From NCBI RefSeq assembly GCF_900142535.1, contig NZ_FRBE01000004.1:124001-188000 (forward strand): a stretch of DNA of 64,000 nucleotides, in the 5' to 3' direction. Within the stretch, counting starts at the first letter, position 1. Every line of letters begins with the position of its first letter. Below, piece after piece: positions 21,382 to 35,024 of the stretch. Source of the stretch: Fibrobacter sp. UWEL (GTDB lineage: Bacteria > Fibrobacterota > Fibrobacteria > Fibrobacterales > Fibrobacteraceae). The notes below the pieces were generated by a model that did no database searches, was not told the origin of the DNA, and saw only the letters and a list, made by a program, of their open reading frames with translations. The position numbers were made by a program, and so were the translations under genes.

Positions 21382-21813
21382 ATGGAAAACGAAAACACTA
21401 AACTCACGCAGAGTCTGGAAGATTATCTGGAAATGGTGCACATGCTTAAGATGGCTCATGGCATTGCCCGCGTCAAGGATATTGCTGCAGCTCTGTCTGT
21501 TAAGATGCCTTCTGTGGCAAAGGCCATTCTTGAACTGAAGAAGCTGGGCCTGGTCACTCAGGAACCTTATAGTGGCGTGGAATTGACGGAAGCGGGGGAG
21601 AAGGCTGCGGCCGATGTCCTGAATCGCCATATTCTACTGAAAGGATTTTTAATTCGTCTCGGCGTCTCCGAAGCTATTGCTGATAAGGACGCCTGCTGCA
21701 TGGAACACATCCTGTCGGCGGAGACTCTGTCTAAAATCGAAGACTTCATGAAGCCTTCCAATATCACTGTGACCGCAAGCCTTAAGAAGCCCAAGGTTGC
21801 AAGGAGTAAGTAA
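21382..21813 (+). CDS. DtxR-family iron-dependent repressor
   Basis: Protein of 143 residues: winged helix (about 10-65, SLEDYLEMVH then VKDIAAALSVKMPSVAKAILELKKLGLV) and the dimerisation/metal domain (about 70-125). Visible ligands are D14, E17, H83 and the motif C105-x-x-E108-H109. A cysteine at this place corresponds to Cys102 of DtxR rather than to the glutamate of MntR, which points to iron. There is no C-terminal SH3-like domain, as in MntR-size family members. Its stop overlaps the feoA start (TAATG), so it is encoded in the feo operon and probably controls it through the boxes at 21320-21366. Confidence 0.85.
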   Translation: MENENTKLTQSLEDYLEMVHMLKMAHGIARVKDIAAALSVKMPSVAKAILELKKLGLVTQEPYSGVELTEAGEKAAADVLNRHILLKGFLIRLGVSEAIADKDACCMEHILSAETLSKIEDFMKPSNITVTASLKKPKVARSK

Positions 21814-22097
21814 TGAGCTGTAATTGCGGCTGCGGTTCTCCCAAGTCCACCAAGAAGTGGAATGCGGATCCGAAATTCTCTGAACTGAAGAAGGGCGACA
21901 AGGTGGAAATCGTCGGCTATAACGAAGGTGATTCCCGTTATAAGTCCAAGCTCCTTTCCATGGGCCTTGTCCGCGGCGTCACTCTTGAAGTGATGCAGAT
22001 TGCTCCTCTGGGTGATCCCATCGAAGTGAGTGTGTTGAGCTACCGCCTTTCTTTGCGTCGTGAAGAAGGCAATGTATTGAATCTGAAGAGAGTTTAA
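21813..22097 (+). CDS. feoA: Ferrous iron transport protein A
   Basis: Protein of 94 residues. A cysteine-rich N-terminal tail (SCNCGCGSPKS) of about 18 residues precedes an SH3-like FeoA domain: LKKGDKVEIVGY, KLLSMGLVRGVTLEVMQIAPLGDPIEV and the closing LSLRREEGNVLNL. FeoA is a small cytosolic partner of FeoB. The Cys cluster at the front is an extra that could bind metal or a cluster. It starts inside the stop codon of the DtxR-type gene and ends 14 bases before feoB. Confidence 0.95.
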   Translation: MSCNCGCGSPKSTKKWNADPKFSELKKGDKVEIVGYNEGDSRYKSKLLSMGLVRGVTLEVMQIAPLGDPIEVSVLSYRLSLRREEGNVLNLKRV

Positions 22098-22111: not shown

Positions 22112-24862
22112 ATGTCACCGAAACCGTTTACAATTGCAATTGCAGGTAACCCCAACTGCGGTAAGACTGCTTTATTCAACGCCCTTACGGGCTCCCGCCA
22201 GAGTGTGGGCAACTGGCCCGGCGTTACCGTCGAAAAGAAAGAAGGCTTTTTCGATCTGGGCGCCCGCCACATCCGTGTGGTGGACCTTCCGGGTACTTAC
22301 GCCATCTTCGCCAACTCCGAAGATGAACGTGCTGCTGTTGACTTCCTCCTGACTCGGGAAGCCGACCTGATTGTAAACATCATGGACGCCACCAACATCG
22401 AACGCAATATGTTCCTGACTTCCCAGCTGGTGGATATGCGCCAGCCCATGGTGATTGCGGTGAACATGATGGATATTGCCGAAAAGCGCGGCCTCCATAT
22501 TGATCTTGAAGCTTTGTCCAAACGTTTTGGCGTACCCGCCATCCCTCTCTCTGCGGTGAGCGAAAAGAGCGTTACCAATTTCATTAGCCAGATGGCCCAT
22601 GTTATCTCTAGCCAAATTGCCATCCCCACTGAATTCACCTATGGTGAAAAGGTGGAAAACATGGTGAAGGAATTGGAACCTCAAGTAGCTCCCGTAGCAG
22701 AGATGTTGGACGCAAGCCCCCGTTGGGTTTCCCTCATGTACTTGGGTCACAGCGGCTGCTATGCCGATAAGTTTGCTGCTGCAGGCGTTAAGCTGGACAA
22801 GGCTACTGTTACTGCAAAGCTTGGTGAAGAATCTGAATTCGTTATGGCTGATGCCCGCTACAGTATGGCCCATGAAATCGCTGGCGAAGTGATTGTTGGC
22901 GATCGAACCAAGAAGACCAATTCCGACAAGTTCGATTCCATTTTGCTGAACCGTTGGCTGGCTCTGCCTATCTTCCTGTTGGTCATGTATCTGGTATTCT
23001 GGATTGCGGTGACTATCGGTAGCGCCTTCATTGACTTCTTCGATATTACCTTCGGTGCAATCTTTGTAGATGGCCTTGGTTACCTGCTGGGTGACGTCAT
23101 TGGCGCTCCTGCTTGGGTGACTGCAATTCTCGCTGACGGTGTGGGTGCCGGTATCCAGACGGTGTCTACCTTCATCCCGGTCATCTTCTTCATGTTCCTG
23201 TGCCTTACCTTCCTGGAAGACTCTGGCTACATGGCTCGCGCTGCCTTCGTGGCGGACCGCTTTATGCGATTCCTGGGGTTGCCTGGTCGGGCATTCGTCC
23301 CCATGATGGTGGGCTTTGGTTGTGGCGTTCCCGGCATTATGGGCTCCCGCGTTCTTGAAAGTAAGCGTGAGCGCTTCCTCACTATATTCCTTGTACCTTT
23401 CATGAGCTGTGGCGCCCGCTTGCCGGTGTACGCACTGTTTGCTGCAGCCTTCTTTGGTAAGCAGGCTGGAACCATTGTGTTCCTGCTGTACCTGGTGGGT
23501 ATTGTATTTGCTATCGTGTACGGTTTGTTCCTGAAGAAGTCCCTCTTTATGGGTCAATCCAGCAACTTTGTGATGGAACTTCCCAATTATCATCTGCCCA
23601 AGTTTAAGTCCCTGATGATCCATTCCTGGCTCAAGCTGAAGGACTACGTGCTTCGCGCTGGTAAGGTGATTACTATTGCTGTGGCTGTTCTTGGCTTCCT
23701 CAATGCCTTTGGCTATGTGGATGGCAAGTTTACCGCCGGCAACGCAGATTCCGAAAACAGCCTGCTCTCCTCTGTAGGCAAGACTATTACCCCGGTGTTC
23801 GAACCCTTTGGTGTTGAAGAAGACAACTGGCCTGCATCCGTTTCCCTCTTTACCGGCTTGCTGGCCAAGGAAGCTGTCATCGGTACCATGAATTCCCTCT
23901 ACGCCATGGCCCCGAAGGATGAAGCCGCTGGTGTAGAAGTAGGACCTAAGGCAGAACCCGCCTCCGCTGTCATTCCGAGCGATTCCTCTAACGTCATTCT
24001 GAACGAAGGCGTAGCCGCAGTCGAAGAATCCAGTGCGGAACCCGCTCCAGTTGACTCGACTGTCATTCCGAGCGAAGGCGTAGCCGCAGTCGAGGAATCT
24101 ACTGAAGCCTCCGCGGAACAGCCTGCCGAAGCACCTGCAGAAGAAAATCCTCTTATCGCCGGCGTCGATGAATGCCCTGCAGAAGAAGAGGAAGAAGGTG
24201 CTCCGGATATCAAGGGTGCGTTCATTGAAGCCTTCCAGTCTATTCCTGCAAACCTGAGCGAAGTGGTTGGATCTCTTACCGATATTCTGGGTACCTCTGG
24301 CGAATTGGAAGGTCAGGCTGCCGCAGAACTGAAGAAGGAAACTCTGGACAAGATTCAGGAATCCAAGACCTTGACTTGTGAAGAATATGCCGCCATCGAA
24401 ACCTTCGGTGAAGAGGAAGGCGACGAAAAGACTCGCGAAGAAGTATTTGCAAAGCTTGCTGCCGCCGGTGTAGAACTGAGTGAAGATGAAATGGGTGCCC
24501 TTGAAGAAGGCGACCTGAGCGAAACCGCAGATATCTACGCAAACCTCCGCTCTTACTTCCATAACGGCGGTCACGATGGATTCAACTGGCAGGTGTTTGC
24601 ATTCCTGGTGTTCATCCTGCTGTACGTGCCTTGCCTGGCTGCCATGGGCGTTGTGGTTCGTGAAATCGGCCTGGGTCTCGGTATCCTCATGGCAACGGTT
24701 CAAACCATCATCGCTTGGTCTGTAGCGGTACTCCTCTATCAGATTCCTGTAGGTGGCGATACTAAGTGGTCTGTAATCGCTGTGATCGTCTTGATTGGAA
24801 CTGGAATCTTCCTGAAGTTCTTTGGCATCAAGGCAAACAAGCAAAAGAGATTTGAGGACTGA
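22112..24862 (+). CDS. feoB: Ferrous iron transporter FeoB with a long variable loop
   Basis: Protein of 916 residues, longer than the usual 600-800. It has an N-terminal G domain (GNPNCGKT, DLPGTYA, NMMD), a helical GDI-like region, then the membrane part with two Gate motifs (GCGVPGIMGSR and AKEAVIGTMNSLY). Between Gate 2 (about residue 590) and the next membrane helix (about 828) lies a loop of roughly 235 residues that is Glu/Ala/Pro-rich; in E. coli the same loop is much shorter. Its first part (about 620-665) is encoded by a dispersed intergenic repeat read in frame (VIPSEGVAAVEES and relatives). It imports Fe2+ at the inner membrane. It is the last gene of the operon; a hairpin follows. 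Confidence 0.95.
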   Translation: MSPKPFTIAIAGNPNCGKTALFNALTGSRQSVGNWPGVTVEKKEGFFDLGARHIRVVDLPGTYAIFANSEDERAAVDFLLTREADLIVNIMDATNIERNMFLTSQLVDMRQPMVIAVNMMDIAEKRGLHIDLEALSKRFGVPAIPLSAVSEKSVTNFISQMAHVISSQIAIPTEFTYGEKVENMVKELEPQVAPVAEMLDASPRWVSLMYLGHSGCYADKFAAAGVKLDKATVTAKLGEESEFVMADARYSMAHEIAGEVIVGDRTKKTNSDKFDSILLNRWLALPIFLLVMYLVFWIAVTIGSAFIDFFDITFGAIFVDGLGYLLGDVIGAPAWVTAILADGVGAGIQTVSTFIPVIFFMFLCLTFLEDSGYMARAAFVADRFMRFLGLPGRAFVPMMVGFGCGVPGIMGSRVLESKRERFLTIFLVPFMSCGARLPVYALFAAAFFGKQAGTIVFLLYLVGIVFAIVYGLFLKKSLFMGQSSNFVMELPNYHLPKFKSLMIHSWLKLKDYVLRAGKVITIAVAVLGFLNAFGYVDGKFTAGNADSENSLLSSVGKTITPVFEPFGVEEDNWPASVSLFTGLLAKEAVIGTMNSLYAMAPKDEAAGVEVGPKAEPASAVIPSDSSNVILNEGVAAVEESSAEPAPVDSTVIPSEGVAAVEESTEASAEQPAEAPAEENPLIAGVDECPAEEEEEGAPDIKGAFIEAFQSIPANLSEVVGSLTDILGTSGELEGQAAAELKKETLDKIQESKTLTCEEYAAIETFGEEEGDEKTREEVFAKLAAAGVELSEDEMGALEEGDLSETADIYANLRSYFHNGGHDGFNWQVFAFLVFILLYVPCLAAMGVVVREIGLGLGILMATVQTIIAWSVAVLLYQIPVGGDTKWSVIAVIVLIGTGIFLKFFGIKANKQKRFED
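23968..24100 (+). repeat. Dispersed GTCATTCY-type repeat translated inside feoB
   Basis: Two near-full copies (23991-24031 and 24061-24100) and one truncated copy (23968-23987) of the sequence type GTCATTCYGAGCGAAGG..GAATCT found between genes elsewhere in this window (for example 55352-55378). Here they are in frame in feoB and code for V-I-x-x-EGVAAVEES. Confidence 0.7.
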
Positions 24863-25057: not shown

Positions 25058-26182
25058 ATGAAAAAGAAATATGTATTTGGTTTGATGATGGTGTCCCTTT
25101 TGTCTGCAGGCGCAATGGCTGAAGAAGCTCCCGCTGCTGCAGAATCTAAGGGTCCGGAAGTCGCCTTCTCTGGTGAAGTTGAATTTGACGCCTATACTGG
25201 CGACTTGTTCAGCGATGGCGCCAAGACTCATAGCTACGCCTCCACTTTTGATTTCAATGTGGGTGTGAAGTTTAATGACCAGTGGTCCGCAGAAGTTCAG
25301 CTGGAAGCTGATGGCGAAACTACTGATCCCGCTGCAGTATACAATGGCGCATTCATTCAGTATACTAAAAGCGAAAACTTTGTTGTTAAGGCTGGCGACC
25401 TGACTTTCTCTGAAGGCGCTTTCCTGAACTACTATGGTTATGACGATCCTGCCGACAATGCTGCAGGTATGGCTGAACACGATATTCGAGGAGTTGAAGT
25501 TGACTTTAACGGCTTTATTTTTGGCCTCGGTTTTGGTCGGGGTGACAACGACAATCAAGTATGCGTTGAAGAAGATGGTGAAGAAACATGCGTAGGCGTT
25601 GCCTATGATGCTCACCTGGCTTATGAACTGGGCTTGGGTGAACACACCCTGCGTCCCTATGTGGATTATAAGTCCTACCAGGAACCGAAACACAACGAAC
25701 TTCACGCTGGCTTGGATGCAAACCTGAAGTTTGGTGGCTTTGGTCTTCACGCTGTTTATGGCCTCCATGCGGATGCCCTTGGCGAAGACGAACCGGGTGC
25801 AACTCACGCCTTCTTGCTGGAACCTTCTTTCGAAGTAGGTGGCTTTAATATTAAGGCAACCGTTTTCTACGCTCTGTTTGACGAAGACGCCCCCATTGAT
25901 CACGGCGAAGAAATTCCTGAATACATGCTTGCCTATGTGGAACCTAGCCTGAACTTGGTTGGATCTCTGACTCTTGGCATCCCTCTGGAATATCATACCA
26001 ACTCCACGGATGAAAACACCGATCTGGAATCTTTCGCAGCAGGTGCTCGCCTGTACTTTGCTCCGGTGGAAGGCCTTGAAATGACCGGCTTTGCCATGTT
26101 CAACGTACCTCTGGGCGATGATTACGGCGACGATGATGACGTAAGCCTCACTCTGGGTGTGGAAACCGTCTTCTCCTTCTAA
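25058..26182 (+). CDS. Outer-membrane porin-like beta-barrel, iron island
   Basis: Protein of 374 residues with signal peptide ending at AMA-EEAP. The mature part is a chain of amphipathic strands (FSGEVEFDAYTGDLF, WSAEVQLEAD, FGLHAVYGLH) and ends in VETVFSF with a C-terminal Phe, the usual barrel signature. It is very acidic, with patches such as EDGEE and YGDDDDV. It sits just after feoB with its own TTAG-N6-CTAA box, so iron-controlled expression and a role in divalent cation passage across the outer membrane are plausible but inferred. Confidence 0.75.
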   Translation: MKKKYVFGLMMVSLLSAGAMAEEAPAAAESKGPEVAFSGEVEFDAYTGDLFSDGAKTHSYASTFDFNVGVKFNDQWSAEVQLEADGETTDPAAVYNGAFIQYTKSENFVVKAGDLTFSEGAFLNYYGYDDPADNAAGMAEHDIRGVEVDFNGFIFGLGFGRGDNDNQVCVEEDGEETCVGVAYDAHLAYELGLGEHTLRPYVDYKSYQEPKHNELHAGLDANLKFGGFGLHAVYGLHADALGEDEPGATHAFLLEPSFEVGGFNIKATVFYALFDEDAPIDHGEEIPEYMLAYVEPSLNLVGSLTLGIPLEYHTNSTDENTDLESFAAGARLYFAPVEGLEMTGFAMFNVPLGDDYGDDDDVSLTLGVETVFSF

Positions 26183-26320: not shown

Positions 26321-26881
26321 ATGGCAAAAATGTTTGATTCCTGTCTTGTTCGGCAATGCGCTCCCACCCTTGCTGGGCTGAAGCTTGGTAATCTATTTTG
26401 CATGGACGCTGTGGATGGTCTTTTGCTTTGCAGGATCATGTCTCGATGGAATGAGATTTTGAATCCGCGAGGTGTGTATGCTCGTATTTTAGCGGAAAAG
26501 AAGGGGCGTTATTATATCTACGTCTTTCGAAATAGCCTGCTCTGCCATCTTTGCGAATCTAGCGAAGTACGTTCTTTCTTGAATGGCTTCGGGTATGATC
26601 GTTTTGATGTGGAGTCGCTGCTGAAATGCTTTCAGACCCGTATGGCGAAATCCGTTTGCTTTCCTCACGAGGTGGGCGTTTTTCTCGGGTACCCGCTGGA
26701 AGATGTCCGTGATTTTATCGTGTACGGCGGTAAGAATTACAAGCAGATTGGCTGCTGGAAAGTCTATAACGATGTTCAGAATTCTATGCACATTTTTGAA
26801 GTCTACAAAAAATGCAATAAGGATTTGTGGAATCGTTTCGAGCAGGGAATGCCCCTGGATCTCTTGACCGTTGCAAGTTAA
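26321..26881 (+). CDS. DUF3793 family protein
   Basis: Protein of 186 residues matching the DUF3793 pattern: an RNSLLCHL strand, then CFPHEVGVFLGYPLEDVRDFI, GKNYKQIGCWKVYNDVQNSMHIFEVYKKC near the end. The biochemical role is unknown; members often sit beside flavodoxin and Feo genes in anaerobes, and that context is repeated here. It has a TTAG-N6-CTAA box immediately upstream and a flavodoxin gene downstream. No ribosome site is evident. Confidence 0.8.
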   Translation: MAKMFDSCLVRQCAPTLAGLKLGNLFCMDAVDGLLLCRIMSRWNEILNPRGVYARILAEKKGRYYIYVFRNSLLCHLCESSEVRSFLNGFGYDRFDVESLLKCFQTRMAKSVCFPHEVGVFLGYPLEDVRDFIVYGGKNYKQIGCWKVYNDVQNSMHIFEVYKKCNKDLWNRFEQGMPLDLLTVAS

Positions 26882-26975: not shown

Positions 26976-27404
26976 ATGAGTAAAATCGCAATTGTTTACT
27001 GGACTGGAACTGGAAACACAGAAATCATGGCAAATGAAATTGCCGCAGGTGCCCGCGCAGCTGGTGCAGATGTTTCCGTATTCCTCACTTCTGGATTCAC
27101 TGTCAGTGATGCTGCTGAATTCGACAAGTTTGCCTTGGGTTGCCCCGCCATGGGCGCAGAAGAACTGGAAGATTCTGAATTCCTGCCGCTGTACGTGAAG
27201 ATGAAGCCTGTTCTTGCTGGTAAGAAGGCTGTTCTTTTCGGTTCTTACGGCTGGGGCGGCGGCGAATATATGAACGGCTGGAAGGAAGATGCAACTGGAG
27301 CTGGTTTGGTTCTGGTGGATGATCCGCTGGCTCTTGAAAATGCACCTGATGATGATGGAAAAAATAAGTGCCAGGAATTGGGCAAGGTACTGGCTCTGGC
27401 GTGA
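26976..27404 (+). CDS. Short-chain flavodoxin
   Basis: Protein of 142 residues with the FMN phosphate loop TGTGNT (10-15), a second loop GSYGWGGGEYM and the length of short-chain flavodoxins. It transfers electrons in the cytosol and commonly replaces ferredoxin when iron is scarce, which fits its place in the iron island. AAGGA lies upstream of the ATG. A membrane transporter gene follows after 57 bases. Confidence 0.92.
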   Translation: MSKIAIVYWTGTGNTEIMANEIAAGARAAGADVSVFLTSGFTVSDAAEFDKFALGCPAMGAEELEDSEFLPLYVKMKPVLAGKKAVLFGSYGWGGGEYMNGWKEDATGAGLVLVDDPLALENAPDDDGKNKCQELGKVLALA

Positions 27405-27461: not shown

Positions 27462-29849
27462 ATGGTTGTTTCAGACATCAATAAATTCTTCGATAAGTTG
27501 GGTCGAAAGCAAATCAAGTATCGGTGGCCAATACTGTTGGCCATTTTTCTATTCACTGTAATTTCATGCATTGGCCTGGGCCAGTTGAAATTGTCTGCCA
27601 ACGAAGAAAACTGGTTTGACAACTGGGATTCTATAAAAGAAGACACAGATCGTTTCAAGGAGATTTTCGGCAACGACGATTACTTCTCCTTGATGGTGCG
27701 GGCCAACGATGTGATGGCCCCCGAAGTTCTCAAGGCCATTGATCGTGTTAGCAAGCGATTGGAAGAAGAAATACCTTACGCAGATAAGGTAGTCTCCTTG
27801 ACCAGGCATCTTTCTATTCCGGTGGCCAACGACGAAGGCTTTGAAATTATCGACCCTTTCGAAAAAGGAATTCCTGAGGATGCGGATTCCTTGAAGGCTA
27901 AGGTGGACTTGATTATGAGCCGCGCATCATTGGTGAACAATGTGGTTTCTGATGACCGTAAGGAATGCTGGCTTATATTGTCTTTTTTGCCTTATGAAGG
28001 GGGTCTGGAATTTGCCACCCAAAATATTACTCCGAAAATTCGTGACGTTGTTTATTCCGAAGAATTTAAAAGCGACAAGTATGATTTTCTACCCGCTGGC
28101 ATGAGCTATACTGAAATGGAGGAAGATGAGGCTGCTGGCAGTGAATGTGCCGTACGCGTCGGCCTGGGCTTCCTTGTCATGTTGATTTGCTTGATTGCCT
28201 TTGTCCGTTCCTTGCGAGGCGTGGTCGTTCCTGCGGTTTCTACCATTTTTGCCATTGCTTCGGTGATGGGAATTAATGGTTGGCTGGGCCTCATTGGTGA
28301 CAGCAATATGGTGGCCTTGCCGGTTCTCTTGGGCATGGCTCTTTCCGTTGGTTACTCCGTCCATTATATTAATTCATTCCGCCAAAAGTTCAGGGTTTCG
28401 GGCTTGCGTATGGAATCTGCCATCGGCGCTGTTGAAGAAACGGGCTGGCCCATCTTCTTTACTGTGTTGACCACTATGGTGTCCCTCCTTTCTTTCCTCT
28501 TTGCGGGTATTAAGCCCATTCGTTGGATTGGCGGAATTTCTGCGGCCATAGTCTTTATGGTCTTTGTCTATGTCATGGTTTTGATTCCTATTCTGATGAG
28601 CTTTGGTAAAAATGGAACTCCTGATTCCGGAGCAGTCCTTGCCAAGGGTGCCACCAAGGTTGACTTGGGATTTAGAAAGTTGGCTTTGAGAGTGTGCCGT
28701 CGTTCCGCTTCTGTGGCTGTAATTCTTGGGGCGTTTATAATCCTGCAGATTCCCGGTGCCATGAATATTGATGTGAATATGGATTACACCAAAACGATGG
28801 GCGCTAAGATACCCTATGTTGCCCGTTTGCTGGATATGCTTGATGGAAAACTGGGAAGCTTGTATAGTTACGATGTGATGATTGAATTCCCGGAGAATGA
28901 TGCGTTGAAAAATCCTGAGAACATGCTTGCGATAGAAAAGTTGGAAACAGCTCTAGGAGCCCTAAGCTTGACCAAGATTTCTGGCGATAGTCCTAGAATC
29001 ACATCTGTTACCCAGATGGTGAAAGAGATTAATCGAACTCTTAACGGAGATTCCCTGGAGTACTACAAGATTCCTGAAGATACGGATATGTTGACCCAGC
29101 TCTTGTTCCTTTATGAAATTTCCGATGGGGATGCGCTCTTTGATAAAATCGATGAAGATTACAAGACTCTTTACATTCATGTGGAAATGTCTGGTTACGA
29201 TGCCAATGAAATCGTAGCAAATATGGATTCCATCTACAAATTCACGGAAGAAATCCTGCCTAACGCCAAGACTTCTGTAGTAGGCGAAGTTATGAATTAC
29301 GCCACCATGAACGGTCGCTTGGTAAAGGGACTTTTGCGTTCCTTTGCGGGTTCCTTCGTGATGATCGCCATCCTTATGATTCTTGCCTTTGGCAGTGTGA
29401 CTGCTGGCCTTATCGGTATGATTCCTAATGTGGCTCCAGTGTTTGTCATCGGCGGGATTATGGGCTATTTTGAAATGCCGCTGGATATGATTACCATGAT
29501 TGTGATGCCCATGATCTTGGGTATCGCAGTGGATGACACGATCCATATGACAAACCATATTAAGTATGAACTGGAACGAGCTGGTGGATTTAGTCATGAA
29601 TGCTACAGAAAGGCAATTTGCACTACATTCCAGAGCATTGGCAAGACTTTGACCATGACCACGATCATTCTTTGCACCATGTTCTTTGTCTTTGTGTTCA
29701 GCCCAATGAATGCCCTCTCTAGAATCGGAATTCTTTCTATTGCAGGCTTATTTGCGGCCTTGATTGCGGACTACACTTTGACTCCTGCGTTAATCTACAT
29801 GTTCCGTCCATTTCACAAGAAGAAAAATAAACAAGGAGAAGAAAAATGA
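27462..29849 (+). CDS. MMPL/RND-family membrane transporter
   Basis: Protein of 795 residues with the RND plan in duplicate: one helix near 25-45, a periplasmic domain, a block of five to six helices (about 225-365), another single helix near 410, a second periplasmic domain and a final block of helices (about 625-785). The helices contain [14 protein letters not shown] and [13 protein letters not shown], the latter with the acidic residues of proton relay. This is the MMPL/HpnN type that moves lipids or hydrophobic molecules. The stop overlaps the next start (ATGA at 29846), so it is coupled to the LolA-like gene. GGAGGG precedes the ATG. Confidence 0.85.
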
Positions 29850-30619
29850 AGAAGATATTTGTAACAACCGTATTGGCGTTATCCACTATGATTTTTGCTG
29901 TGGAACTTACTGGTCGTGACATTATGGTGAAGGTGGACCAGGTTCCCGAAGGAGATACCCGTTATTCCGAATTGGAAATGAAATTGATTAGCAAGAACGG
30001 CAGCGTTCGTGAACGTAAAATAACCTCCTTTGCCATGGACGAAGGAAAGGTGACGAAGCAAGTGATGTTTTTTACTTATCCAAAGGATGTAAAGGGCACC
30101 GGGTTCTTGACTGTGGACTACGACGAAGCGGGAAAGCCTGATGACCAGTGGCTTTATCTACCTGCCATGAAGAAGACTCGTCGCATTAGTGGCAGCAGCT
30201 CCAAGACCGATTACTTCATGGGTTCCGACTTTACTTACGATGACATTGGTGAACGTAATGTAGATGAGGATAATCACAAGTACCTTCGAGATGAAAGGAT
30301 GGAAGGAGTGGACTGCTACGTAGTGGAATCTACGCCCAAGAATCCTGCAGACGAAGTTTTCTCCAAGAAAATTGTATGGATCCGTAAGGATATTTTGAAG
30401 GTGGTGAAGGTGGATTATTTTGATAAAATGGGAAATCTCCAGCGCAAGTTCGTAACCGGTGACATCAAGCAAATTGATGGTTTCTGGACTATTGGAAAAA
30501 TGCACGTGGATAACGTGCAGACAGGCCATTCTACGGAACTGATATTCAACAACGTAAAGTACAATATTAAGGTAGATGCCAAGACGTTTACGGTGAATAA
30601 ACTGGAACGGGGCCTGTAA
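29846..30619 (+). CDS. Outer-membrane lipoprotein-sorting (LolA-like) periplasmic protein
   Basis: Protein of 257 residues with signal peptide [18 protein letters not shown]. The body has the pattern of the family that accompanies MMPL transporters: DIMVKVDQ at the start, [39 protein letters not shown] and YYVVESTP-like strands, a LolA-type half barrel. It probably shuttles a lipidic substrate through the periplasm. It overlaps the transporter gene by 4 bases and is followed after 1 base by the barrel gene, so all three form one operon. Confidence 0.85.
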
Positions 30620-30620
30620 A

Positions 30621-31802
30621 ATGAAAGCCTTCAAATTCATGTTGATTTTGGGAGTGTTTCTTTTGACGTTTGCTCAGGAGGAATCACCTTTTCAATTTAA
30701 CGGTTTTGTAGATTCCTACCATGCCCTGCAACGTGAATACCCTCATGACTGGATTTCTTCTCGCACACGCGTTCGCGGTGAATTGAAGGGATCCTACGAT
30801 AACGCTTCTTTTTTTGTAAGCGCGAACGCTGTGTACAATAAAATCCTTGAAAGCGAAAACGGTTTCAGCCTGAACGAAGCCTATTTGGATTATGCCAATG
30901 ATTTTATTCAGGTGAAGGTGGGTAAGCAAATTGTGGTCTGGGGCGTGGCCGATGAATCCCGCGTGACAGACCTGATTTCGCCTTTGGATTACACCGAATT
31001 TATTGCAAACGATTATGACGATATCCGTATGGCGATAAATGCGGCCGATTTCAAGTTCCTGGGAAGTTTCTTTGAAGCCGAAATGATTTTTGTACCTGTG
31101 GCTAGTTTCGATAAACTGCCTACGGATTCCAAGAATCCTTGGCGCGTTCGAATTCCCGAAAATATGGAACTGCAGTTGGAAACGCCTGAGGCTCGTATCA
31201 AGAATTGCGAATATGGCAGCCGTCTGCGATTCTTTACGGAATATCTGGATTTCTCGTTGACAGCATTGCACACATTTAATAAGACTCCTGTGACTTATGC
31301 CGAGATAGATTCCTTGGGAAGTGTTAGCCTTGTGGGCGTTTACGAGAGTATGACGGTGCTGGGTGGGGATGTGTCCATCCCGCTAGACGCTTTTGTTATT
31401 CGCGGGGAGGCTGCGGAATACTTTGACGAGGCCATCGCCCATAAGAATGGCATGGGCTACAGTCGAAAGAATACGTTTAATGGCGTCTTAGGCGTTGACT
31501 GGAACGGCCCTCATGACTGGACGTTGATGGCTCAGTATAGCTACAAGTACACTGGGGAACATTTGTCCTCCGCCAGTTTCCAAATTGCAAAATCCTTGCT
31601 GGGTAGCACCTTGGAATTATCCGTTTCCGGCCAGTATGACATTAGCGATAAAGGCTTTTTCGGAAGAGCAGCGGCCCAGTATGCCCTCAATGATCAAATT
31701 ACACTGTACCTAGGTTACGACCACATCTTTGGGGATGACGGATTCTTCGGAATGTACAAACACAACTCTGAATTCTGGGCCAAGGGAAAGTTCTTTTTCT
31801 AA
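30621..31802 (+). CDS. DUF1302-like outer-membrane barrel protein
   Basis: Protein of 393 residues with signal peptide (MKAFKFMLILGVFLLTFA) and many amphipathic strands, ending in AKGKFFF. FNGFVDSYHALQREY, ISSRTRVRGEL, LNEAYLDYANDFIQVKVGKQIVVWGVADESRVTDLISP match the pattern of DUF1302-type proteins. These are encoded with MMPL and LolA-like genes, as here. Together they would form an inner membrane-periplasm-outer membrane path. The substrate is unknown. Confidence 0.78.
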   Translation: MKAFKFMLILGVFLLTFAQEESPFQFNGFVDSYHALQREYPHDWISSRTRVRGELKGSYDNASFFVSANAVYNKILESENGFSLNEAYLDYANDFIQVKVGKQIVVWGVADESRVTDLISPLDYTEFIANDYDDIRMAINAADFKFLGSFFEAEMIFVPVASFDKLPTDSKNPWRVRIPENMELQLETPEARIKNCEYGSRLRFFTEYLDFSLTALHTFNKTPVTYAEIDSLGSVSLVGVYESMTVLGGDVSIPLDAFVIRGEAAEYFDEAIAHKNGMGYSRKNTFNGVLGVDWNGPHDWTLMAQYSYKYTGEHLSSASFQIAKSLLGSTLELSVSGQYDISDKGFFGRAAAQYALNDQITLYLGYDHIFGDDGFFGMYKHNSEFWAKGKFFF

Positions 31803-31823: not shown

Positions 31824-31915
31824 GTTAGTTAGGTAAACAAAGTTAGAATTTCTAACAAAATTAGGGCGTCTAACTTAGTTGTTTACTAACTAACTTAGTT
31901 AGCTTGAACCTAAGT
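31824..31915. promoter_or_regulatory. Cluster of TTAG/CTAA boxes in a large inverted repeat before the fezA-like gene
   Basis: About ten GTTAG or CTAAC half-sites lie within 90 bases. Clear pairs are TTAG-N5-CTAA at 31843-31855 and 31861-31873 and TTAG-N7-CTAA near its end. Two outer arms, GTTAGTTAGGTAAACAA and TTGTTTACTAACTAAC, are near-perfect inverted repeats. The region is 120 bases before the next ATG. It is the densest block of the box family found in the iron island. Confidence 0.5.
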
Positions 31916-32031: not shown

Positions 32032-32259
32032 ATGTCTATTTTCAAAAATGAAAAGTTCTGGTTGGTTATTGCTGGCGCGGTTGGCTCTGCCGTTACCAAG
32101 AAGGTTCTCAAGGCCAAGAAGACTCGTGAACTTGCAGTAACTGGTCTTGCACACGGCATGAAATTTACTGCCGACGCCAAGGCTACCTTCCAGGATATGA
32201 AGGATGAAGCTAGCGACATTTGCAACGATGCAAAGTCCGAAGCTGGTCTCGACAAATAA
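32032..32259 (+). CDS. fezA: Small membrane-associated protein, FezA/DUF6110-like
   Basis: Protein of 75 residues starting at ATG 32032 with AAGGAG 8 bases upstream. It has a short N-terminal hydrophobic segment (WLVIAGAVGSAVT), a basic KKVLKAKKTRE stretch and a C-terminal helix (DAKATFQDMKDEASDICNDAK). A small protein of this plan directly before a P-type ATPase of the SCA type is the arrangement of ferrosome operons, where it is called FezA (DUF6110-like). The name rests on layout and general pattern; I could not align it. The ATPase gene starts 34 bases downstream. Confidence 0.6.
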   Translation: MSIFKNEKFWLVIAGAVGSAVTKKVLKAKKTRELAVTGLAHGMKFTADAKATFQDMKDEASDICNDAKSEAGLDK

Positions 32260-32293
32260 TTGTCCCTACAAGTAATCTTGCGTAGGTAAGTTT

Positions 32294-34378
32294 ATGAAGT
32301 TCAGAATCGTTTACGATCAGCCGGGACGTATCCGTTTCCGCTGTGGGCCATACGCCTTTGAACCTGAGTTTGAAGGGCGTATCCACAAGGCTTGCGTAGG
32401 GTTATCCTGCGTCAAATCTGCGGTAGTTCATAGCGCCAATGGCGGCATTTTGCTGGATTACGTAGAGGATGCAGCAAATCGCCAGACGATTTTGAATTTC
32501 ATTGCTTTATTGAATCCTAAGGATTTGCCAGAAGTGGATCCGGAAACGGATTTTCAGTTGCAGTCTCTGGATGACAATTTCCAGAACAACCTGTGCAAAA
32601 TGATTGCCCGTCGCTATCTGATGCGATGGTTTGTTCCGCTGCCCATCCGTACGGCAATTACCGTTTTTCGCGGCCTCAAATATGTGGCCAAGGGTTTGTC
32701 GACACTGGCAAGCGGGCATTTGACGGTCGATGTCTTGGACGGTGCCGCCATCGGTGCGTCCATGCTCCAGAAAAATTACGAGTCTGCAGGTACGGTCATG
32801 TTCCTGCTAGGTGTTTCTGGCTTGCTGGAGGACTACACCAAGGCACGTACCCGCACGGCACTTACAGGCAGCCTTGCGGTTAAGGTGGACAAGGTCTGGG
32901 TCGTAAAGGATGGCGTAGACACGTTAGTGGATCTGAAGAATGTTCAGGTGGATGACATGGTCCGCATCCGTTCCGGTGCCATGATTCCTGTGGACGGAAC
33001 CGTCGTTGAAGGCGAAGCTTTTGTCAACGAATCTACCATGACAGGGGAATCCAGGGCTGTTCTCAAGAATGAAGGGAAAACTGTTTTCGCAGGCACCATT
33101 TTGGACGAAGGTTCCATTGTGGTGAAGGTCCGTGCGGTAAATGGCAATACCAAAATCCAGAAGATTATTGAGCTGATTGACCATAGCGAAGATCTGAAGG
33201 CTGGTATCCAGAGCCGTGCGGAACATTTGGCGGATCGCATTGTTCCCTTCAGTTTCCTTGGCTTTGGATTGACGCTCCTGTTTACTCGAAACATTACCAA
33301 GGCCGTTTCCATCTTGATGGTGGATTATTCCTGTGCCATTAAGCTTTCCACTCCCATTTCTGTTATTTCTGCACTGCGGGAAGCCGCGGACAGGAATATG
33401 ACGGTAAAGGGAGGCAAGTATCTAGAAGAATTCGCCCTGGCAGATACCATCGTTTTCGATAAAACCGGAACCTTGACCAAGGCGGAACCGAAACTTCAGA
33501 AGGTGATTGCCTTTGATGGTCGCGCTGAAGATGAAATCTTGAAAATAGCAGCCTGCATTGAGGAACATTTCCCCCACAGTATGGCTCGCGCTATTGTAAA
33601 CGGTGCTGCGGAACGTGGCATCGACCACGCCGAAGAACATGCGGATGTGAAGTACATTGTGGCCCATGGCATTGCAACTGCCTTGAATGGCGAACGCGCT
33701 GTTATCGGTAGCAGACATTTTGTGATAGAAGACGAATGCGTGACCATGACGGCGGAACAGCAATCCCGCATTGATTCCGAGGGCGGTGCTGCTTCTGTCA
33801 TTTACCTGGGCATTGGCGGAAAGTTGGCCGGTGTTCTGTGCATTAGCGATCCCCCGCGAGAAGAGGCTGCCGTGGCTATCAAGCGCCTGCGGGAAACGGG
33901 CATCAAGAATGTGGTCATGATAACAGGCGATAGCCACAAGGCTGCAGAACGTACCGCTCAAATTCTTGGGATAGACACGTTCTACGCGCAGGTTTTGCCC
34001 GAAGATAAGCACAATTATGTGGAACGCATGAAAGCAGAAGGCAAGCGGGTGATTATGGTGGGGGACGGTATCAACGATGCTCCCGCCCTGGCTGCAGCCA
34101 ATGTTTCTGTTGCCATGAGTGACGCTTCTGATATTGCCCGAGAAACTGCGGACGTAACTCTCCGAGGAGAAAATCTAGAAGATTTGGCAGAACTTCGCGT
34201 TCTTAGCCAAAAGTTGATGAATCGAATTCAGACCAACTACAAGTTCATCGTCGCCTTTAATACGGGGCTACTTGCGGGCGGTTTCTTCGGATTTCTTTCT
34301 CCCACCACGTCGGCATTCTTGCACAATGCTTCAACCATGGCCATATGCGCCAAGAGCATGACGAAACTGAGAACCTAA
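32294..34378 (+). CDS. fezB: P1B-type metal ATPase with SCA motif, probable ferrosome FezB
   Basis: Protein of 694 residues. Actuator motif TGES at 250-253, phosphorylated D389 in DKTGT, and hinge GDGIND at 590-595 are intact. The membrane metal motif is S346-C347-A348 (DYSCAIKLSTP) in place of CPC or SPC; SCA marks the P1B-6 group to which ferrosome FezB belongs. The first 100 residues are HMA-like but lack CxxC. It would load Fe into a membrane-bound storage organelle. It follows the FezA-like gene and a cluster of TTAG/CTAA boxes, close to feoAB. Another P1B ATPase exporting Mn, Zn or Fe to the outside is the alternative. Its stop abuts the stop of the next convergent gene with no base between. 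Confidence 0.8.
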   Translation: MKFRIVYDQPGRIRFRCGPYAFEPEFEGRIHKACVGLSCVKSAVVHSANGGILLDYVEDAANRQTILNFIALLNPKDLPEVDPETDFQLQSLDDNFQNNLCKMIARRYLMRWFVPLPIRTAITVFRGLKYVAKGLSTLASGHLTVDVLDGAAIGASMLQKNYESAGTVMFLLGVSGLLEDYTKARTRTALTGSLAVKVDKVWVVKDGVDTLVDLKNVQVDDMVRIRSGAMIPVDGTVVEGEAFVNESTMTGESRAVLKNEGKTVFAGTILDEGSIVVKVRAVNGNTKIQKIIELIDHSEDLKAGIQSRAEHLADRIVPFSFLGFGLTLLFTRNITKAVSILMVDYSCAIKLSTPISVISALREAADRNMTVKGGKYLEEFALADTIVFDKTGTLTKAEPKLQKVIAFDGRAEDEILKIAACIEEHFPHSMARAIVNGAAERGIDHAEEHADVKYIVAHGIATALNGERAVIGSRHFVIEDECVTMTAEQQSRIDSEGGAASVIYLGIGGKLAGVLCISDPPREEAAVAIKRLRETGIKNVVMITGDSHKAAERTAQILGIDTFYAQVLPEDKHNYVERMKAEGKRVIMVGDGINDAPALAAANVSVAMSDASDIARETADVTLRGENLEDLAELRVLSQKLMNRIQTNYKFIVAFNTGLLAGGFFGFLSPTTSAFLHNASTMAICAKSMTKLRT

Positions 34379-34984
34379 TTATTTCTGCATCGTGCAGATG
34401 GCAGTTCCTGCCTTAATTAATTCTTCCCAGTTTTCTAATGCGACTTTAACTACGTCGGGATCGTACATGATTCCGGCGTTCTTTTCAATTTCTGAACGGC
34501 ATATAGAAACGTCCATTCCCTTGCGATAGGGACGATCTGAAATCATGGCGTCGATGGAATCGGCGATTGCGATAATTCTTGAACCCAGGGGAATGTTTGC
34601 GCCGGACAGACCATCGGGATAACCTTTACCGCCCCAGCGTTCGTGGTGTCCGCGTACAATGATGGCTACGTCCTCAAATAGCTTTGCCTTCCGTAAAATT
34701 TCGTAACCTTGCAAAGAATGGGATTTCATGATTTCCCATTCTTCATCATTCAATCGTCCTGCTTTTAAAAGAACGTCATCTCGGATACCGATTTTCCCAA
34801 CGTCATGCAAGTGTGCCGAAATATGGAATAGTTCTTCCTGATCGCCTGAAATGCCAAGGAACTTGCATAGGGCTTCCACCATTTCCGCTACGCGGGAGGA
34901 ATGGAAACTGGTGTAGGAATCTCTTGCTTCCAGGGCGGAAACGACGCACAAGATTAAGTCATGGTATTGAGATAAGGCTGACAT
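34379..34984 (-). CDS. HD-GYP domain phosphodiesterase
   Basis: Protein of 201 residues consisting of one HD-GYP domain: H28, H60-D61 in HLHDVGKIG, HH at 113-114, the GYP at 121-123 and the closing IAIADSIDAMISDRPYR. HD-GYP enzymes hydrolyse cyclic di-GMP and hold an iron-containing metal centre. No sensory or membrane domain is attached. It has GGAGG upstream of the ATG and a TTAG-N6-CTAA box in its own short leader, so it may be part of the iron regulon. It converges with the fezB-like gene. Confidence 0.88.
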   Translation of the reverse strand: MSALSQYHDLILCVVSALEARDSYTSFHSSRVAEMVEALCKFLGISGDQEELFHISAHLHDVGKIGIRDDVLLKAGRLNDEEWEIMKSHSLQGYEILRKAKLFEDVAIIVRGHHERWGGKGYPDGLSGANIPLGSRIIAIADSIDAMISDRPYRKGMDVSICRSEIEKNAGIMYDPDVVKVALENWEELIKAGTAICTMQK

Positions 34985-35010: not shown

Positions 35011-35024
35011 TTAGTTAAAGCTAA
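35011..35024. promoter_or_regulatory. TTAG-N6-CTAA box upstream of the HD-GYP gene
   Basis: TTAGTTAAAGCTAA lies 27 bases upstream of the minus-strand ATG at 34984, inside the wider inverted repeat AGTTAG-N6-CTAACT. It is the fifth example of the box in this region. Confidence 0.5.

Follow-up and report, generated by a model that had tools for sequence, protein, structure and literature searches.

Known ferrosome loci and related pumps

Very few bacteria have been proved to form ferrosomes. Knowledge of their loci goes back to 2022, and that of the minimal fezXAB locus of C. difficile to 2023 (PMC10979944, PMC11651100, PMC11533511). In ferrosome bacteria the membrane encloses an iron store (PMC12574912, PMC10979944). 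Six fez genes are found in R. palustris CGA009; the locus of C. difficile is described as fezXAB, of which fezC is not part (PMC11533511), or as fezAB (PMC11651100). P1B-6 pumps carry an HN motif in M6 and are encoded beside DUF6110 proteins, and CtpC also has HN but combines it with CPC (PMC9374683). The substrate of the P1B-6 group is listed as Fe(II) (PMC7558416). DUF6110 and DUF1490 have been described as related, and a superfamily link between FezA-type proteins and PacL has already been noted (PMC9374683). A literature search with Fibrobacter and ferrosome retrieved no report for this group, an earlier listing of a Fibrobacter FezB in a supplementary table being possible.

The fezA-fezB gene pair

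The window analysed here, a stretch of 64,000 nucleotides from Fibrobacter sp. UWEL (contig NZ_FRBE01000004.1, positions 124,001 to 188,000), contains two adjacent genes that probably constitute a minimal ferrosome-type locus (Table 1). The first-pass annotation had described a 75-residue protein with one hydrophobic segment encoded just before a P-type ATPase, the latter with SCA at residues 346-348 and lacking CxxC. Both open reading frames were found again, SCA is present in the translation, and the cysteines of the ATPase (17, 34, 39, 101, 347, 421, 482, 516, and 685) form no CxxC. An AAGGAG ribosome site lies just 5' of the ATG of the small gene. Its product (MSIFKNEKFWLVIAGAVGSAVTKKVLKAKKTRELAVTGLAHGMKFTADAKATFQDMKDEASDICNDAKSEAGLDK) has its single hydrophobic segment at residues 10-26, corresponding to an N-terminal membrane helix with a G-x2-G motif, and continues as a charged cytoplasmic helix. 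The C-terminus ends in EAGLDK and harbors no His-rich metal-binding tail.

Table 1. Features of the iron locus in the window
Feature	Coordinates	Strand	Remarks
Box TTAGCCTTGACTAA	21320..21333	+	before dtxR-feoAB
DtxR-family iron-dependent repressor	21382..21813	+	both Pfam domains; first gene of feo operon
feoA	21813..22097	+	
feoB	22112..24862	+	ferrous iron uptake; assigned by sequence and synteny
Box TTAG-N6-CTAA	24940..24953	+	before OMP gene
Probable outer membrane protein (OMP) gene	25058-26182		374 aa
Box TTAGACTAGACTAA	26305..26318	+	before DUF3793 gene
DUF3793 protein gene	26321..26881	+	conserved member of iron locus
Short-chain flavodoxin gene	26976..27404	+	directly 5' of fezA in many relatives
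MMPL/RND transporter, LolA-like, and DUF1302 genes	27462..31802	+	between flavodoxin and fezA
Four boxes TTAG-N5-8-CTAA	31843..31913	+	fezA promoter; at 31843, 31861, 31875, 31899
fezA-like gene	32032..32259	+	75 aa; ATG 32032, stop 32259
fezB-like gene	32294..34378	+	694 aa P1B ATPase; ATG 32294

FezA is present in 50 of the 168 genomes of the phylum, each of which also encodes FezB, and a single further genome contains a FezB fragment without FezA. The two genes are thus adjacent and co-inherited in 50 of 51 genomes. Within the genus, the ATPase is found in 47 other genomes at about 76-91% identity, paired with the small gene every time. This strict pairing, together with the conservation across these 47 genomes, indicates that the gene pair is more than a chance association. 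A tblastn search of plasmids with the small protein gave no match. The 3.53 Mb genome also contains 70 Fib_succ_major domain matches, in keeping with Fibrobacter.

The pump belongs to the SC(A/V) clade of P1B ATPases

The ATPase is complete and matches TIGR01525, the P1B ATPase family, with an E-value of 6e-145. Besides SCA in M4, where it replaces CPC or SPC, it carries TGES (250-253), DKTGT (389-393), and GDG (590-592), and its last helix (M6) contains HN at 677-678, the signature of P1B-6 pumps. Neither SCA nor HN varies when ten distant relatives are aligned. The N-domain is HMA-like, free of CxxC, and contains PGRIRFR. The structure was predicted with AlphaFold from an alignment of ten sequences, giving a model of modest quality (mean pLDDT 76). 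Its N-terminal domain (residues 3-72) has a beta-beta-alpha-beta-beta-alpha topology and resembles a heavy-metal-associated fold from which the CxxC has been lost; some eight membrane helices follow, along with the A, P, and N domains typical of such pumps. A structure search with the model retrieved other P-type pumps alone, the nearest solved ones being copper, zinc, and cadmium P1B pumps.

Relatives were gathered from the phylum, from plasmids, and from one scan of species genomes, which yielded other Shewanella species rather than S. putrefaciens, and a tree was built from 42 P1B pumps; the verified FezB proteins of C. difficile, D. magneticus, and R. palustris are not among these 42. One clade with a support of 100/99 unites all the SCA and SCV pumps. 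It includes the Fibrobacter ATPase alongside pumps of proteobacterial fez-like loci, in line with the first-pass annotation, which had proposed the FezB type of P1B-6 ATPases for the protein. The Fibrobacter pumps are sister to pumps of Deinococcus (100/99), where the gene upstream of the pump is annotated as DUF6110. CtpC-like pumps with DUF1490 partners fall outside the SC(A/V) clade, and forcing the Fibrobacter pumps together with this PacL/CtpC zinc-efflux type costs 85 log units and is rejected (AU p 3e-6). These results support a FezB-like P1B-6 pump, the likeness to ferrosome pumps being drawn from clade, motif, and partner.

The tree and the motifs also bear on another type of iron pump. 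FrvA and PfeT are assigned to P1B-4. Such Fe(II) exporters also relieve iron excess, as described for Listeria FrvA (PMC3283593), and a function of this kind could be considered for the Fibrobacter protein. It is very improbable, given that M4 reads SCA and not SPC, that M6 has HN, and that the ATPase does not fall with any of the remaining P1B types present in the phylum.

On a conjugative plasmid of Cereibacter azotoformans, a P1B-6-like pump with ACP replacing SCA is encoded near an HMA2 gene and a divergent FeoA gene, a neighbourhood resembling feo-fez loci.

The small protein is a remote relative of FezA and PacL

By Pfam, the small protein of the window matches DUF1490 with E-values of 2.9e-4 to 3.8e-4, under the curated cut-off, and does not match DUF6110 even at E 5; a DUF6110 search over the whole genome found nothing either. 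Its homologue in a sister genus reaches DUF6110 at E 3.3e-3, also below the cut-off, and matches DUF6110 and DUF1490 alike (E 0.003-0.006). A FezA profile made from 55 phylum sequences was searched against 10,966 ORFs of loci that do not belong to the family, and the top ranks were taken by DUF1490 proteins, DUF6110 proteins, and small proteins adjacent to proteobacterial FezB, each match being weak on its own (E 0.01 to 1). Eight of the 12 top matches lie just before a pump gene, against 0.8 expected (p 1.6e-7), under a strict adjacency rule that misses two Azospirillum partners. In addition, hhalign aligned FezA to Deinococcus DUF6110 with P 2.9e-4. A comparison of two-row profiles of DUF6110 and DUF1490 gave nothing, and is too thin to carry meaning. 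Finally, the Fibrobacter FezA-like proteins retain K-x6-7-G-x2-G, a pattern described for the helix of PacL (PMC13043812).

Profile ranking, hhalign, and co-occurrence thus support a remote membership of the DUF6110/DUF1490 (FezA/PacL) superfamily. The relation to FezA that had been proposed for this protein holds at the level of the superfamily; membership of Pfam DUF6110 by threshold does not. Since the Pfam matches are below cut-off and the profile, hhalign, and gene position agree, the protein is here called FezA-like rather than a DUF6110 member.

This kinship also speaks in favor of the main rival to the ferrosome reading, in which FezA would cluster FezB into an efflux platform of the plasma membrane that exports Fe(II) to the periplasm without any organelle. 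PacL, a relative of DUF6110, forms efflux platforms in the membrane together with its pump (PMC9374683, PMC13043812), and the protein of the window is closer by Pfam to DUF1490 than to DUF6110. Against such a platform, which we regard as unlikely, the CPC of CtpC-type pumps and the His-rich tail of their partners are both missing here, and a common clade with these pumps is rejected.

An iron-related neighbourhood conserved in two gene orders

The surroundings of fezAB are rich in iron genes, as the earlier annotation had noted: a DtxR-family regulator, feoA, feoB, and a flavodoxin gene were all confirmed. That annotation had also placed fezAB beside feoAB. They do share a neighbourhood, but are not adjacent in the window, where feoB ends 7.2 kb 5' of fezA; the arrangement is tighter in relatives. 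The MMPL-LolA-DUF1302 block separating the flavodoxin gene from fezA is peculiar to the window, the 19 related loci of the genus that were compared with it having no such block. It looks like a transport operon inserted into the iron locus, and is not thought to be part of the fez system. FeoB contains a long acidic insert between its membrane domains, with repeated stretches resembling VIPSEGVAAVEES.

Across 20 genus loci, the order dtxR-feoA-feoB-OMP-DUF3793-flavodoxin-fezA-fezB is found in nine, window included, and fezA-fezB-dtxR-feoA-feoB-OMP in four. Three others have DUF3793-flavodoxin-fezAB without feoAB in reach, one of them ending at a contig edge, and in the remaining four fezAB stands apart. 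feoAB therefore lies within about 11 kb of fezAB in 13 loci and out of reach in seven. The flavodoxin-fezA-fezB arrangement is retained in another genus of the family. That feo and fez are brought together in two differing orders points to a working link rather than to a merely inherited gene order. This placement of fezAB near a DtxR-feoA-feoB operon with a flavodoxin gene, seen in most relatives, is new here.

The recurrence of this linkage also weighs on the reading in which the ATPase would be a P1B-6 pump with a different substrate (Zn, Mn, or Co) that lies near feo by chance. For P1B-6 pumps the substrates are for the most part inferred, and the metal cannot be read from FezA, which lacks a metal-binding tail; a chance association is nevertheless improbable given that the feo/flavodoxin linkage is repeated in two alternative orders, and that fez and feo have promoter boxes in common.

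No fezC-like gene was found next to fezAB, in agreement with the minimal cluster first described, and because C. difficile uses fezXAB, the missing fezC is no defect of a two-gene type. Two genes of the cytochrome-type DUF4405 family, to which FezC belongs, occur elsewhere in the genome (C13:63355 and C10:56530). They were set aside as FezC candidates, being unlinked to fezAB.

Promoter boxes common to feo and fez

The window contains eight TTAG-N5-8-CTAA boxes against 2.9 expected, and none of 100 shuffles reached eight. Seven of them precede dtxR, the OMP gene, the DUF3793 gene (one each), and fezA (four). Over the genus, 38 boxes were counted before fezA, spread over 13 of 20 loci (shuffle mean 0.9, maximum 4), the exact box missing from the other seven promoters; 31 before dtxR (12 of 13 loci, 0.9 expected); 11 before the OMP gene (11 of 14); and 17 before DUF3793 (16 of 18). 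None precedes feoA, which is internal to the operon. As the genus sequences are related and not independent, these counts overstate the evidence. The interior of the box varies while its ends stay, which is how an operator would behave.

The boxes before fezA are thus a likely operator of an iron regulator. Their spacing is N6 at feo and N5 or N7 at fezA; given this difference, a single regulator for feo and fez is no more than likely, and the DtxR-type repressor is the proposed candidate. No earlier report of a regulatory link between fez and feo was found, and the one suggested by these boxes appears to be new.

A strict palindrome, GTTAGN5CTAAC, was discarded as a regulon finder, with two places in the genome, fewer than its reversed control. 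A search with TTAGNCTWGNCTAA returned just three sites, of which two fall within the feo region and the third has no clear iron gene near it. A further box, TTAGTTAAAGCTAA, lies at 35011-35024, 27 bp before a minus-strand HD-GYP-type gene (34379-34984), and could belong to the same regulon or be due to chance.

The boxes common to fezA and feo suggest expression on iron starvation. For a pump that merely removes excess iron at the plasma membrane, one would instead expect induction by high iron, a further point against an efflux platform.

Iron storage and proposed function

A search with Pfam Ferritin revealed no recognisable dedicated ferritin, bacterioferritin, or Dps in the genome, and its one weak match is a rubrerythrin gene (C13, 2966-3508 of locus L174). 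Ferritin matches are similarly weak across the genus, in genomes with and without fezAB, so that the genus as a whole seems to do without these three proteins. The lack of a recognisable ferritin leaves room for a ferrosome-type store; as some genomes of the genus have no fezAB, such a store would not be essential.

The proposal of a ferrosome-type locus made in the first annotation is borne out at the level of the genes, by the pair, its motifs, the clade, and the co-occurrence. That the locus actually forms ferrosomes is somewhat more likely than not. FezB would then pump Fe(II) from the cytoplasm into membrane compartments, the transport ligands being Cys347 of M4 together with His677 and Asn678 of M6. 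FezA, whose G-x2-G helix allows packing, would bring FezB together and give the compartment membrane its shape or stability. In plentiful iron, the DtxR-type repressor would keep both fezAB and feoAB off; starvation would release them, so that FeoB and FezAB would be made together. When ferrous iron returns, FeoB would import Fe(II) and FezB would pack the surplus away across the membrane.

Fibrobacterota are abundant cellulose degraders of herbivore guts. If ferrosome formation holds true, ferrosomes extend to this phylum, and the way in which bacteria without ferritin hold iron would be explained. With its two genes and its promoter link to feo, the locus offers a simple system for studying the role of FezA and the dispensability of FezC, and allows one to ask whether FezA acts as a scaffold in the same way as PacL. 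More tentatively, and with somewhat less than even confidence, we propose a wider picture: ferritin-free iron storage in a two-gene organelle, a DtxR-type regulon joining feo and fez, a partner within the PacL superfamily, and ferrosomes and efflux platforms as two outcomes of one ancestral pump-plus-scaffold module.

Comparison with known systems

Like fezXAB of C. difficile, the Fibrobacter locus has two structural genes, for a small membrane protein and a pump, and no fezC, a likeness drawn from published descriptions of that locus. Regulation by iron goes through Fur there and would probably go through a DtxR-type regulator here, in a locus that also includes feoAB and a flavodoxin gene. 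With fezABC of D. magneticus and RPA2333-2338 of R. palustris, it has in common a FezB-class pump and a small membrane partner, but it has neither the FezC cytochrome (DUF4405-like; PMC10979944) nor the extra genes.

The P1B-6 loci of Shewanella, Vibrio, Chromatiaceae, and Azospirillum belong to the same 100/99 clade, with SCA, HN, and a small transmembrane protein encoded before the pump. Their pumps are only 32-34% identical to the ATPase of the window, and several added small genes, for Pro/Tyr/Gln-rich and HMA2-like proteins, are absent here. In three of these proteobacterial loci (L055, L087, L121), the genes before the pump encode an HMA2-like protein with PGRIR, Pro/Tyr/Gln-rich one-helix proteins, and a glycine-rich two-helix protein.

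The DUF6110-P1B-6 pairs of Deinococcus, the nearest clade outside the family, have the same two-gene layout, but their pumps carry SCV instead of SCA, their partners are 160-167 aa long, and no iron genes are annotated in their 3 kb flanks. Finally, mycobacterial PacL1-CtpC likewise joins a small transmembrane partner (DUF1490) to a P1B pump with HN, and differs by its CPC, its zinc substrate, its metal-binding tail, and its separate clade. Set beside these systems, the Fibrobacter locus is a well-supported addition to a recently discovered system, and not a new kind of system.
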